This document shows positions 23,856-28,777 of a stretch of DNA of 35,855 bases, piece by piece. Position 1 is the first letter of the stretch. Each line of letters starts with the position of its first letter. Under the pieces are notes generated by a model, which was not told where the DNA came from, did no database searches, and saw nothing but the letters and a program-made list of their open reading frames with translations. The stretch lies in assembly GCA_005885245.1 (NCBI GenBank), contig VAWR01000102.1, forward strand, positions 1 through 35,855. Reading direction: 5' to 3'. The translations under genes were made by a program, and so were the position numbers. The stretch comes from Actinomycetota bacterium (GTDB lineage: Bacteria > Actinomycetota > Thermoleophilia > Gaiellales > Gaiellaceae).

Positions 23856-23936
23856 GAGCTTGTCTCCTTTCGCCATCGTCGTCGTCGGGTCTGGCGACAC
23901 GGCTCGATCGAAGCATCGACTGCTGTCTCGTTCTTC

Positions 23937-23979
23937 GGGGCTAACCCTGAGGCAGCGGCAAATCGAGGGAAAACCCTGA
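23937..23979. promoter_or_regulatory. Two GGGGnnAACCCTGA-type sites
   Basis: GGGGCTAACCCTGA (23937-23950) and AGGGAAAACCCTGA (23966-23979) share the pattern of a G-run, four bases, and CCCTGA. Their starts are 29 bases apart, close to three helical turns. A third copy at 26020-26033 lies before the response-regulator operon. They stand upstream of the minus-strand secreted protein gene. Candidate binding sites for a NarL-type regulator. Confidence 0.55.
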
Positions 23980-24004
23980 ATGTCCGGCGGGACGCGGTCG
24001 ACCG

Positions 24005-25966
24005 TCAGCGCTGCGGTTGGATCCGGAGCACGCGACCGTTGTCGTCATTGACCCACACCGAGCCGAAGCCGACGGCGACCCTGACCGGCGTCCCGCCGAC
24101 ATGAAGCCTCGCGATGAGCCGCCCCGTATGCGGATCGATCTGGTCGACATTGGCTGAGTCGATGACGGCGACCCAGACCGAGCCAAAGGCGACCGCAAGA
24201 CCCACTGGGTGCGGCTCGGCCTGCCTGGCGGTGAGCTTCTTCGTATGAGGGTCGATCCGGGCGACCACGTCGGCGCAGGCCCCACCCGCCGACCAGACTG
24301 CATTCGCATCTGCGGCGAGGAACGCACACGGCGGATACGGGAGCTTCATGGTTGAGATCACGCTGTTCGTCCCTGCATCGATGCCCACGATCCTGTTTTC
24401 GTTCGGGACGCCGACCCAGACCGCGCCATGAGCAGCCATCAGGCTGAAGTGCTCGGAGCAGCAGGCGAGCTTGGGGCCCAAGCGGATCGTGGCGACAATG
24501 CGGTTCGTCACCGGATCGATGCGCGAGACGCTTGGGGCGCCGCCGTTCACCACCCAGACAGCGCCCGGCGAAACGGCGATGCCGACCGGCTGCGGCCCGA
24601 CATGGATCGTTGCGACTACCTTGTTCGTCGCAGGATCGATGCGCGAGACCTTGTCGGCCAACGGGTAGGAGAGCCAGACGCCGCCGTCGCCGGCGGCCGC
24701 CGCTTCGGGGGGAGAAACCTTGATTCGGGCGACGATTGCGTTTTGCGTCGGGTCGATCCGCATCAGCGTCGACTCGATGTCGCTCATCGCCCAGACCGCG
24801 CCCTCGCCGACCGTGAACGCGCCGCCTCCTAGCGGAGCCGGCGCACCATTTCCAAGCGGAATCCGGGCAACGACCCGTGCGCCGGGAGGCAGCACACGCG
24901 TGTTGGTTGGCGCAGACTGCGCACTGGTTGCCGTGACGGCCGGGCCCGGGTTCCCCGCCGAAGTAGCGCTGACGCGCGTGAGCGTGTTCGAGGCGAAGCT
25001 GCTGGCCCAGATGGAGCCACCCGAGGGTACGACCACTAGCGCAGATGAGTCTTTCGCCGGCGACGCGACCCTGATCGCCGGCCCCGCCTCCTTACCCGAG
25101 CGTACATCGATCCGCTGAACCGTCCCCTCGCTCGCGTCCCCGACAAAGAGATAGCCCCCGGCCCTCGCCAGCCACACCGGTTGGCCACCGATGTGCATCG
25201 TCTTACCGACCGGCTGGAGTGTCTTCGGGTCGAGACGCCCGATCTCCCCTCGATCCCGGTTGGCGAACCAGATGCTGCCGCCTGCGATTGCGATCCCTGC
25301 GGGAAAACCGCCGACATCCACCGGTCGGATCGCACGAGTCGCCGGATCGATGCGAAGAACCTCGGCTTCACTCGACGCCGTTGCCCAGACGTATCGGCCG
25401 GCTGCGGCGACCCCGAGGGTCGGTCCCGTCGATAGCGAAAGCGGAGCGGCAGTCGGTGCGAGCGTGAGCGGGTCGAGGCGCAGGAGCGCCGCGGGCTTGA
25501 CCTGTAGCGCCCACAGATCCTTTCCGCTTACGACCAGTGGGCCCACCGGCGTAAGAAACTGTCGCCGCACGAGAACGCGGCCGCTGCGCCAGTCGAGCGC
25601 AATGATCAGGCTCGGACCCGATCCGTTGCCGCCGACGTGCTCGACTGAGGCGAGAAGCCTGTGGCCCACGTGCGCCAGGTACGTCGCCTCTCCGCCGACC
25701 AGGATCCTGCGTTCGACGGCGCCGGAGGCGAGATCGAGACGGAGGAGCGGCCGATCGCGAACCGGTGTCCGCGCATCGGAGAGCGCGAGCCAGAGCGCAT
25801 CACGCCCCGCGGCCACCCAGCCAGGGTGGCTCTGCACGCGCAAGGTCGCCGTCACTCCTCGCGTCGTCACCTTCTCGCCCGAGTGATGGGTGGCCAGCAG
25901 AACGGACCCGGCTATCGCGACGCCAACCGACGCCACGACAACCGCGAGTCGGAATCGGTGGTGCAC
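24005..25966 (-). CDS. Membrane-anchored double beta-propeller protein
   Basis: About 653 residues; the start is uncertain, with in-frame GTGs at 25966, 25981 and 26002 and no clear ribosome binding site. An N-terminal anchor (FRLAVVVASVGVAIAGSVLL) places the rest outside the cell. About 13 repeats of roughly 42 residues follow, each with a pattern like GSVWV...RIDPxTxxxxA, the NHL/YVTN/Vgb-like beta-propeller repeat. An Ala/Thr/Pro-rich linker in the middle (around SAGNPGPAVTATSAQSAPTN) splits the repeats into two propellers of six to seven blades. No catalytic residues can be recognised, so it may bind a ligand or cell-wall component. It diverges from the receiver/kinase operon, suggesting a sensory partner or regulated output. 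Confidence 0.8.
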   Translation of the reverse strand: MHHRFRLAVVVASVGVAIAGSVLLATHHSGEKVTTRGVTATLRVQSHPGWVAAGRDALWLALSDARTPVRDRPLLRLDLASGAVERRILVGGEATYLAHVGHRLLASVEHVGGNGSGPSLIIALDWRSGRVLVRRQFLTPVGPLVVSGKDLWALQVKPAALLRLDPLTLAPTAAPLSLSTGPTLGVAAAGRYVWATASSEAEVLRIDPATRAIRPVDVGGFPAGIAIAGGSIWFANRDRGEIGRLDPKTLQPVGKTMHIGGQPVWLARAGGYLFVGDASEGTVQRIDVRSGKEAGPAIRVASPAKDSSALVVVPSGGSIWASSFASNTLTRVSATSAGNPGPAVTATSAQSAPTNTRVLPPGARVVARIPLGNGAPAPLGGGAFTVGEGAVWAMSDIESTLMRIDPTQNAIVARIKVSPPEAAAAGDGGVWLSYPLADKVSRIDPATNKVVATIHVGPQPVGIAVSPGAVWVVNGGAPSVSRIDPVTNRIVATIRLGPKLACCSEHFSLMAAHGAVWVGVPNENRIVGIDAGTNSVISTMKLPYPPCAFLAADANAVWSAGGACADVVARIDPHTKKLTARQAEPHPVGLAVAFGSVWVAVIDSANVDQIDPHTGRLIARLHVGGTPVRVAVGFGSVWVNDDNGRVLRIQPQR

Positions 25967-26019
25967 ACGACCATCATCCACCGAGCTGCTCGGGGATTCC
26001 ACCGAATTCCCGCGATTCC

Positions 26020-26033
26020 GGGGAAAACCCTGA
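26020..26033. promoter_or_regulatory. GGGGAAAACCCTGA site before the signalling operon
   Basis: GGGGAAAACCCTGA lies in the gap between the divergent beta-propeller and receiver genes, 35 bases before the receiver GTG at 26068. It matches AGGGAAAACCCTGA at 23966-23979 in 13 of 14 bases. The position suits autoregulation of the signalling operon. Confidence 0.55.
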
Positions 26034-26067
26034 ACCGCCGCGAGAGACGTGTGCGACGATTGCGCGT

Positions 26068-26421: not shown

Positions 26422-28145
26422 TGGCGTCTACCGCCGTCACAGCCTCGCCGAGCGGAGACGCGATCCGTGACCCTGTGCTGCTCGTGCCGCTCGTCGTCGC
26501 TGCCGGCCTTGCGATCGGCGGGCTCGGCGTTCACGAGCGAGTCTCAGGGACGCGAATCGCCACGGACCTCGCGCTTTCGTGGGCTCTGGTAGCGGCGTCA
26601 GTCGTCATGCTGGAGCGGCCGCGTTGGCGTCGAGCGAGGTGGCTGCTCGCCGCGACGGCGTTCGCGCTACTGGGCGCCGATCTCGAGTGGGCCAGTTCGC
26701 ACACGGTGTGGACACTCGGGTTCGTACTCGAGGGGTTGTGGGCAGCGTTCCTGGTTCACCTGGTGCTGACCTTTCCGGAAGGCCGCTCCTGGTCGCGCGT
26801 CGCCGGGGTCGCAATCGCCGGCGCCTACGCAGTGACGTTTGGCTGGCAGCTGGTCGGCGCATTCGTGGTTCCGGACGGGCGCGACGTGCTGTCCGTCGCG
26901 CCCCACGCGAGCGTCGCCCACGTAATCGACCGAAGCCAGGAGATCTCCGGCATTGCCATTGCTCTGGTCGTGCTCCTTCTCGTCGGGCAACGGTTGCGCG
27001 TCTTGCGCGGTCCGGCACGTCGAGTGCAGGGGCCGCTTCTTGTCGCGGCTGCGGTCACGGTCCCGGCGAGCCTCGTGTGGCTGGGATGGGTGATCGCGAC
27101 CGACGCGAGCACCTCAACGCTCGGCACAATCGGTCGAGCCGTCGCAGCGTCGCTTCCACTCGGCGTCGTGGCCGGGATCATGGGGTCGCGGCTGCGTCGA
27201 CCGGAAGCGTCCGAGCTGGTCGTCGAACTGCGAACAGAGGCGGCTGCCAGTATGCGCGAGCGGCTCGCACGGGCACTCGGCGACCCGACGCTCGACGTTG
27301 CATACCGACTCGGCGATGGTCGGTACGTCGATGCAACCGGCCGGCCGACCGAACTGCCGCGGGGGGCCGGCCGTGCCGTTACGGCCGTGACCGCGGGCGG
27401 CGCAGAAGTCGCGGTGCTGATTCACGACCCGGCGTTGCTCGACGAACCGGCGCTCGTGGAGTCGGTTCGTGCAACGGCCGGGCTCGTGCTCGAGAACGAG
27501 CGTCTGGCGGCAGTGGTACGTTCACAGCTGGCGGAGGTGCGGGCGTCGCGCGGCCGCATCGTCGCCGCCGCTGACGCGGAGCGACGCCGAATCGAGCGGA
27601 ACCTGCACGACGGAGCCCAGCAGCGGCTCGTGACCCTCTCCGTCGCACTCGGCCTCGAAGCCGCCCGAGCTGACGCGGCCGCAACGGCCGTCGTCGCGCG
27701 CGCACAGGACGAGGTCGAACAGGCGATCGTGGAGCTACGCGAGCTCGCCAGGGGAATCCACCCGACCCTTCTCCGGGACGAAGGCCTCCAGGCCGCGGTC
27801 GAGGCGCTCGCACGACGGACGCCGGTGCCCGTGACGGTCGAGGGCGCCGTTCCCGATCGTCTCCCCGATCCGGTCGAGCTCGCCGCCTACTTCGTCGTCT
27901 CGGAGGCGCTCACGAACGTCGTGAAACACGCCTCGGCGGCGGACGCATCGGTGCTGCTCGTGCAGGAGGTCGGGGCCCTTCGCGTCACGGTCGCCGACAA
28001 CGGAGTCGGCGGCGCAGCCATCACGGCCGATTCGGGCCTGGCCGGGCTCCGTGACCGACTCGAGGCGCTCGACGCGACGCTGGTGATCGAGAGCGAGCCG
28101 GGCCGAGGTACGACCGTCTGCACCGAAATCCCATGCGGGTGGTAA
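26421..28145 (+). CDS. NarL-type sensor histidine kinase, multi-pass membrane
   Basis: 574 residues from the ATG at 26421 (TGATG overlap); an in-frame GTG at 26418 adds one codon. The first 255 residues carry about seven hydrophobic helices, with the LTFPEGRSWSR loop typical of this kinase group. A linker domain of about 100 residues is followed by the HisKA_3 block RRIERNLHDGAQQRL, with phospho-acceptor His about residue 396. The ATPase domain has SEALTNVVKHA (N-box), VADNGVGG and SGLAGLRDRLEAL. It should autophosphorylate and pass phosphate to the NarL-type regulator just downstream, whose start lies inside its own end. The signal may come from the membrane or from the adjacent beta-propeller. 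Confidence 0.92.
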   Translation: MASTAVTASPSGDAIRDPVLLVPLVVAAGLAIGGLGVHERVSGTRIATDLALSWALVAASVVMLERPRWRRARWLLAATAFALLGADLEWASSHTVWTLGFVLEGLWAAFLVHLVLTFPEGRSWSRVAGVAIAGAYAVTFGWQLVGAFVVPDGRDVLSVAPHASVAHVIDRSQEISGIAIALVVLLLVGQRLRVLRGPARRVQGPLLVAAAVTVPASLVWLGWVIATDASTSTLGTIGRAVAASLPLGVVAGIMGSRLRRPEASELVVELRTEAAASMRERLARALGDPTLDVAYRLGDGRYVDATGRPTELPRGAGRAVTAVTAGGAEVAVLIHDPALLDEPALVESVRATAGLVLENERLAAVVRSQLAEVRASRGRIVAAADAERRRIERNLHDGAQQRLVTLSVALGLEAARADAAATAVVARAQDEVEQAIVELRELARGIHPTLLRDEGLQAAVEALARRTPVPVTVEGAVPDRLPDPVELAAYFVVSEALTNVVKHASAADASVLLVQEVGALRVTVADNGVGGAAITADSGLAGLRDRLEALDATLVIESEPGRGTTVCTEIPCGW

Positions 28146-28777
28146 TCGCCGACGACGCGCCGCTCATTCGCGAGGGAGTTGCTCGTCTGCTGACTGAGAA
28201 TGGGGTCGAAGTCGTCGACGAAGCGGGCGACGCCGAGACGCTTCTTGCGAGCGTCCGCGATCTAAGCCCGGACGTCGCTCTCGTCGACATCCGGATGCCT
28301 CCGACGCACACTGACGAAGGGCTGCGCGCGGCCCGCGAAATTCGGTCTCGCTACCCGGGTACGGCCGTCCTCGTCCTCTCACAACACCTCGAGCCCGATT
28401 ATGCGCTGCGACTCGTGGAAGAGAAGCCCGAACGAGTTGGCTACCTGATGAAGGAACGCGTCGGTCGCGTGCAACAGCTCCTCGATGCCTTGCAACGGGT
28501 GGCTGGAGGTGAGTGCGTCGTCGATAGAGCCGTTGTCGACGAACTATTGGCACAGCGCCGCCGTGCCGACCCAATCGCCGAGCTGACGTCTCGTGAGCGG
28601 GAAATCCTCGCGTTGATGGCAGAGGGCCGCTCGAACCGGGGTATCTCTCGCACACTCTGGCTCAGCCCGAAGACAGTCGAGACACACATCAGAGGCGCCT
28701 TCGCGAAGCTGGGGATCACAGAGGCCCCGGAGGACAATCGCCGCGTGCTCGCCGTCCTCGCCTACCTGCGGCGATAG
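28133..28777 (+). CDS. NarL/LuxR-family response regulator
   Basis: 214 residues; the ATG at 28133 overlaps the kinase gene by 13 bases. The receiver has the acidic pair D7-D8 (VIADDAP), phospho-acceptor D52 (VALVDIRMP) and Lys in YLMKERVG. The C-terminal LuxR helix-turn-helix is LTSREREILALMAEGRSNRG with LSPKTVETHIRGAFAKLG. It is the DNA-binding output of the receiver/kinase operon. The GGGGnnAACCCTGA-type sites upstream of this operon, and near the secreted protein, are its best candidate targets, by position only. Confidence 0.93.
   Translation: MRVVIADDAPLIREGVARLLTENGVEVVDEAGDAETLLASVRDLSPDVALVDIRMPPTHTDEGLRAAREIRSRYPGTAVLVLSQHLEPDYALRLVEEKPERVGYLMKERVGRVQQLLDALQRVAGGECVVDRAVVDELLAQRRRADPIAELTSREREILALMAEGRSNRGISRTLWLSPKTVETHIRGAFAKLGITEAPEDNRRVLAVLAYLRR

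Follow-up and report, generated by a model that had tools for sequence, protein, structure and literature searches.

The question raised by this locus is whether three copies of a short motif, RGGGNNAACCCTGA, are the switch sites of a local regulon, and which protein would read them. By the window we mean the whole stretch of DNA that was analysed, 35.9 kb in length. The sequence-only reading had placed three matching sites at 23937, 23966, and 26020, confined to two intergenic gaps, and had named the neighbouring NarL-type regulator as the candidate binder. The three coordinates are exact, both gaps are indeed intergenic, and no further exact match to RGGGNNAACCCTGA occurs in the window. When up to two mismatches are allowed, the window contains 10 matches against 3.56 expected from shuffled sequences, a count reached by 1 of 100 shuffles. 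From the sequence comparisons described below, we propose that at the three sites a two-component regulator very probably switches its own operon, the neighbouring gene for an outer beta-propeller, and a secreted-protein gene.

Sites and genes at the locus

Each of the three sites is enclosed in a larger near-palindrome, YCRGGG-N4-CCCYGR (operators 1 to 3 in Table 1). A fourth, weaker site, operator 3b, had been overlooked; as it lies 28 bp from operator 3, both gaps contain a pair. The 29-bp spacing of the two sites at the secreted-protein gene is as first described, and it corresponds to about 2.8 helical turns, so that the three turns originally suggested hold only approximately. Since the propeller and receiver genes start from GTG codons on either side of it, the pair formed by operators 3 and 3b is flanked by two divergent genes and could act on both of them.

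Table 1. Genes, candidate operators, and putative promoter elements at the locus, in window coordinates.
Feature	Position	Strand	Remarks
Secreted protein, 156 aa	23385..23855	-	Signal-peptide-like N terminus; two cysteines (42, 151)
Putative extended -10, TGC-TTCGAT, secreted-protein promoter	23907..23915	-	19 nt beyond operator 1; counterparts in G029:C70 and G100:C95
Operator 1, TCGGGGCTAACCCTGA	23935..23950	.	Proximal, secreted-protein promoter; predicted centre about -42.5
Operator 2, CGAGGGAAAACCCTGA	23964..23979	.	Distal; 29 bp from operator 1
Beta-propeller protein, 653 aa	24005..25966	-	N-terminal membrane anchor; Vgb-lyase/DUF6923-like repeats; putative leaderless GTG start
Putative -10, TGGATGAT, propeller gene	25973..25980	-	6 nt before GTG 25966; TGGATGAT also in G038
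Operator 3b, weak, TCGGGGATTCCACCGA	25990..26005	.	11/12, core 5/6; 28 bp from operator 3
Operator 3, CCGGGGAAAACCCTGA	26018..26033	.	Control region common to the divergent genes; centred at about -42 relative to receiver start
Putative extended -10, TGTGC-GACGAT	26050..26060	+	7 nt before receiver start codon
Stand-alone receiver domain protein, 117 aa	26068..26421	+	GTG start; PF00072
Membrane histidine kinase, 575 aa	26418..28145	+	HisKA_3 (PF07730) and HATPase_c (PF02518); about 7 hydrophobic segments
NarL/LuxR-type response regulator, 214 aa	28133..28777	+	Recognition helix LSPKTVETH; proposed operator binder

The regulator matches PF00072 (E = 6.5e-18) and PF00196 (E = 1e-14) and is of the NarL/FixJ type; its best solved relatives are VraR and DevR. 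The kinase belongs to the HisKA_3 (HPK7) group, with the H-box RNLHDGAQQR found in alignment. Its only cysteines are residues 568 and 573, and in its sensor region no Pfam match and no PAS domain were detected. No Pfam family was found for the secreted protein. Its model, built with five sequences (pLDDT 80.5), has a mostly beta fold and a C-terminal helix, and a PDB fold search with this model, which is of fair quality, gave no confident match. The 5′ end of the propeller gene (25966-25980) is shorter than in the related genome G038, and there the conserved ATGATG makes better sense within a -10 element than as a start codon.

The palindrome and the recognition helix

The motif is rare in its own genome. 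The 13-mer GGGNNAACCCTGA has five copies in the whole 3.2 Mb, three of them at the window locus, and a backwards control pattern has none. The remaining two copies lie in the pyrC-carA gap (C60) and at the 3′ end of lysA (C210), the gene names being a reading of the translations. The full YCRGGG-N4-CCCYGR pattern is found at only eight places, two of which are at the window locus. A paralogous operon of the same genome (C149), whose regulator has a KTVxxH helix, carries a near-site, AGGGCTAACCCCGA, 56 nt upstream of its receiver gene. Matches with one mismatch elsewhere in the genome, GGGGGAAACCGTGA, were rejected as operators, for they resemble a separate hairpin repeat. That repeat-like element, intergenic and similar to GGGGGAAACCGTGAGGTTTCCCC, follows gcgagggaaggggcg in most copies and has the look of a REP-type sequence (L015, L016, L019, L024, L032, and L033).

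A search of 129 genomes from the order gave 13 occurrences of the perfect palindrome TCAGGGN4CCCTGA, 8 of them at five receiver-kinase-regulator operons. Orthologs of the kinase in two genomes of the same family, G038 (84% identity) and G029 (68%), carry exact motifs in corresponding positions, with sites on both sides of the propeller gene and pairs at 28-29 bp. The comparison lends good support, within family and order, to the local regulon that had been suggested, the same operon carrying sites in these relatives. Across the phylum (397 genomes), perfect palindromes lie mostly away from such regulators and operons, so that beyond the order the motif does not by itself identify them. Only two of the phylum loci checked by homology fit well, namely L383, where the receiver gene begins 56 bp after the start of the palindrome, and L373, where the palindrome is directly behind a KTLETH regulator.

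Some other occurrences may be recorded here. Six genomes from another family of the class (G133, G138, G148, G153, G158, and G163; loci L385-L397) each have several copies of TCAGGGAATTCCCTGA or close to it, mostly without a related regulator nearby, and these are possibly the operator of a different regulator. Genome G228 has 10 palindromes. In G096 (L349:2847-2905), two palindromes 43 bp apart precede what is probably a kinase gene, together with a NarL-type regulator from another subfamily.

Alignment of related regulators shows that those with the motif upstream have a KTVExH helix, and those without it have RAVEK[HY] or similar. About 75 further loci were collected from the order and 80 from named genomes, and the correspondence was counted on 34 receiver-first receiver-kinase-regulator operons with readable upstream DNA. 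A site lies upstream of 13 of 13 KTVxxH operons (class A) and of 0 of 21 operons with the other, RAVEKH-class helix (class B), with a Fisher value of 1e-9 that overstates independence, since each class is largely one clade and the rows are not independent. The background at the same loci is a site of similar quality in 13 of 965 control windows (1.3%). The GGG and CCC letters are invariant in all 13 class A sites, without covariation. A second palindrome, GTGYGG-N4-CCGTAY (motif B), occupies the same upstream region, with the same N4 spacer, in 20 of the 21 RAVEKH-class operons and in 0 of the 13 KTVxxH operons; this evidence is strong but not fully independent, for the operons in which motif B was counted are also those that served to define it, and each class is mostly one clade. 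Examples within 150 bp upstream of the receiver gene are L213, L215, L219, L223, L225, L228, L230, L232, L233, L235, L239, L240, L249-L251, L263, and L273. In first-order Markov resampled sequence, the expectation is 2.2% and 0.5% per region.

Both classes occur in the window's own genome, KTVxxH at C149 and RAVEKH at C110. On the tree, the site-bearing regulators mostly form one clade (17 of 20 rows), with a Nocardioidaceae locus (L114) placed separately. The tree has six changes, too few pairs for an independent-pair test to have any power. With L114 and a Kribbella locus (L112), the pattern reaches beyond the window's order. Five KTVxxH loci with no detected receiver gene are without a site (L126, L162, L254, L275, and L102, the last on a truncated contig).

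In DosR, residues Lys179, Lys182, and Asn183 contact DNA bases (PMC4082495). Here, the motif tracks the recognition helix, which argues for the neighbouring NarL-type regulator as the probable binder, as had been proposed. The three DosR residues are presumably the lysine and the two residues after TV in the KTVKN motif, positions that differ between the classes here. The DNA-reading helix and the operator appear, from these alignments, to have switched together between the regulator paralog classes. It is tempting, if rather speculative, to extend this to an operator code in which KTVxxH would specify CCCTGA half-sites and RAVEKH would specify CCGTAY, at the same promoter position, in one operon type, and sometimes in one genome, with the KTVxxH branch being a self-reporting surface circuit whose induced propeller and secreted protein would feed back on the kinase. 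We hold this combined proposal to be doubtful.

Promoter architecture and candidate targets

The spacing is 28 or 29 bp in 15 of 20 site pairs (pairs within 60 bp), counted with a relaxed threshold for the partner and at loci chosen for having a site. A composite pair pattern is found in the class above its reversed control, though the matches clearly include chance hits beside true pairs. The promoter elements were picked out by eye in the aligned sequences, which have a common order: the site pair, an extended -10 (TGnnnCGAT), and, in most, the start codon. In the window, G038, G029, and G094, the proximal site is followed after 21 nt by GACGAT or CACGAT preceded by TGTGC, and the distance to the -10 is 12 nt in G112 and G119 and 23 nt in G101. 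The start codon then comes after 6-7 nt in most and after 9 nt in G112. At the promoters of the secreted-protein genes in the window, in G029:C70, and in G100, 19 nt separate the site from TGCTTCGAT (TGG in G029), and the leader that follows contains a purine-rich ribosome site.

A start codon 6-7 nt past the -10 suggests leaderless mRNAs, with the centre of the proximal operator near -41.5, as in class II activation. By the same reading, the proximal centre would be near -32.5 in G112 and G119, and the propeller-side pair would be at about -31.5/-59.5. A leaderless -10 of this sort is also present in several class B promoters and so is not specific to this regulon, and the geometry varies, as the best site is 56-68 nt from the start at class A loci L091, L094, L096, L098, and L212. 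A sigma-70 consensus scan at the sites found no promoter and no sigma-70-like -35, and a terminator scan there found no terminator and no T-run.

We suggest the following mechanism. The membrane kinase would phosphorylate the regulator at 28133-28777, which would then bind YCRGGG-N4-CCCYGR palindromes as a dimer, two dimers to a promoter and 28-29 bp apart. The proximal dimer, near -41.5 and over the -35 position, would help RNA polymerase at an extended -10 that is without a good -35. The secreted-protein gene would be activated together with the regulator's own receiver-kinase-regulator operon, and so, perhaps, would the divergent propeller gene. We regard it as quite likely that the sites are operators of this regulator and act in this manner.

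The genes found behind paired sites differ between genomes. A pair precedes the window's secreted-protein gene, and in G038 a second propeller gene has the second pair in front of it. G029 has one pair on C66, ahead of a gene for a small protein, and another on C70. The gene behind the C70 pair encodes a protein that matches the window's secreted protein at 61% identity over its first 46 residues and diverges thereafter. At this last locus (L107:5694-6224), the promoter, signal peptide, and first cysteine are kept and are followed by unrelated sequence, as if the gene body had been replaced or broken. Paired sites are also found before the gene for a secreted 133-aa protein in G100, before that for a dirigent/AOC-like secreted protein in G112 (PF03018 and PF18678, neither reaching the Pfam cut-off), and before propeller genes in G038, G094, and G093 (PD40 in G093). 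In Kribbella, a PD40 propeller gene is two genes away from the site and follows a hydrolase gene whose product has a signal-like N terminus. In G080 and G264, proteins with signal-like N termini are encoded behind sites or pairs to which no regulator operon is linked. Full-length homologs of the window's secreted protein elsewhere are without sites; therefore, the site does not track that protein family. Secreted or surface proteins, often beta-rich, recur under paired sites, and gene identity is not fixed. The kinase, propeller, and secreted protein had been envisaged as one sensory system: their co-regulation is likely, and their working as a single system is only partly supported.

Alternative readings and known systems

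The operators may be real and the regulator may mainly repress, or a same-class paralog encoded elsewhere in the genome may be the main binder. The second KTVxxH operon, C149, has a near-site, and its regulator could bind too; moreover, the -31.5 site of the propeller pair would overlap polymerase contacts. However, the pairs adjoin this operon and its close orthologs, and at the receiver and secreted-protein promoters, proximal sites near -41.5 without a sigma-70-like -35 fit activation better. We consider it unlikely that the regulator mainly represses or that a paralog elsewhere in the genome is the main binder.

There is very little to recommend the view that the palindromes act as hairpins in RNA or DNA, whether as terminators, attenuators, or REP-like repeats, and not as protein sites. 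TCAGGG-N4-CCCTGA can form a 6-bp stem, and the genome does have a separate intergenic hairpin family around GGGGGAAACCGTGAGGTTTCCCC, but the sites have no T-run terminator, lie upstream of the putative -10, and are phased at 28-29 bp, their fixed GGG/CCC letters do not covary among the 13 class A sites, and their sequence changes with the regulator's helix. Chance could be invoked, as the genome is rich in G+C, no more than 11 bases of the 13-mer are fixed, sites of similar quality turn up in 1.3% of control windows, and many phylum palindromes are unlinked. Clustering, conservation at orthologous positions, fixed spacing, and the 13 of 13 against 0 of 21 count already contradict chance within the family and order, and we give it next to no credence.

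Reading the palindromes as operators of the linked regulator would make a testable regulon of a motif picked out by eye, in an actinobacterial lineage for which most of the genomes here are incomplete, and would tie poorly understood propeller and secreted beta proteins to one specific regulator. NarL-type regulators are a very large family, and the natural pair of paralog classes makes their half-site specificity testable by helix swaps.

By domain content, the system is a NarL-type two-component system, and it is neither NreABC nor MtrAB-LpqB. In the NreBC/NreABC systems of staphylococci and Bacillus licheniformis, a NarL-type regulator binds a GC-rich palindrome (PMC8139620, PMC9918477). 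NreB senses oxygen by way of a PAS domain and an Fe-S cluster, and its system acts on nitrate genes, whereas the kinase here has about seven hydrophobic segments with no PAS domain detected, and the candidate targets seen include no nitrate genes. The operon partner is a receiver and not the GAF protein NreA; with no PAS or Fe-S kinase and no NreA, the system is not NreABC. The NreC box, TAGGGN4CCCTA, would have the GGG-N4-CCC core in common with the sites here; a literature search for that string found no match, the papers saying just "GC rich palindromic". MtrAB-LpqB is an actinobacterial kinase/regulator pair with an adjacent external lipoprotein gene (PMC10714768). MtrA is of the OmpR type, whereas the regulator here has a GerE HTH, so the system is not MtrAB-LpqB. 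LpqB contains a propeller domain; that of the present locus resembles Vgb/DUF6923 and is encoded by a divergent gene.

VraR, DosR/DevR, and NarL belong to autoregulated NarL/FixJ-type two-component systems, and the likeness to them lies in a HisKA_3 kinase with a NarL-type regulator and in palindromes at the system's own promoter and at targets. A literature search for the motif string gave no match, and in the DosR box at target promoters, GGG and CCC are further apart. In contrast to these systems, the operon here begins with a stand-alone receiver gene, the palindrome is N4-spaced with pairs at 28-29 bp, and the candidate targets are secreted beta proteins and propellers.
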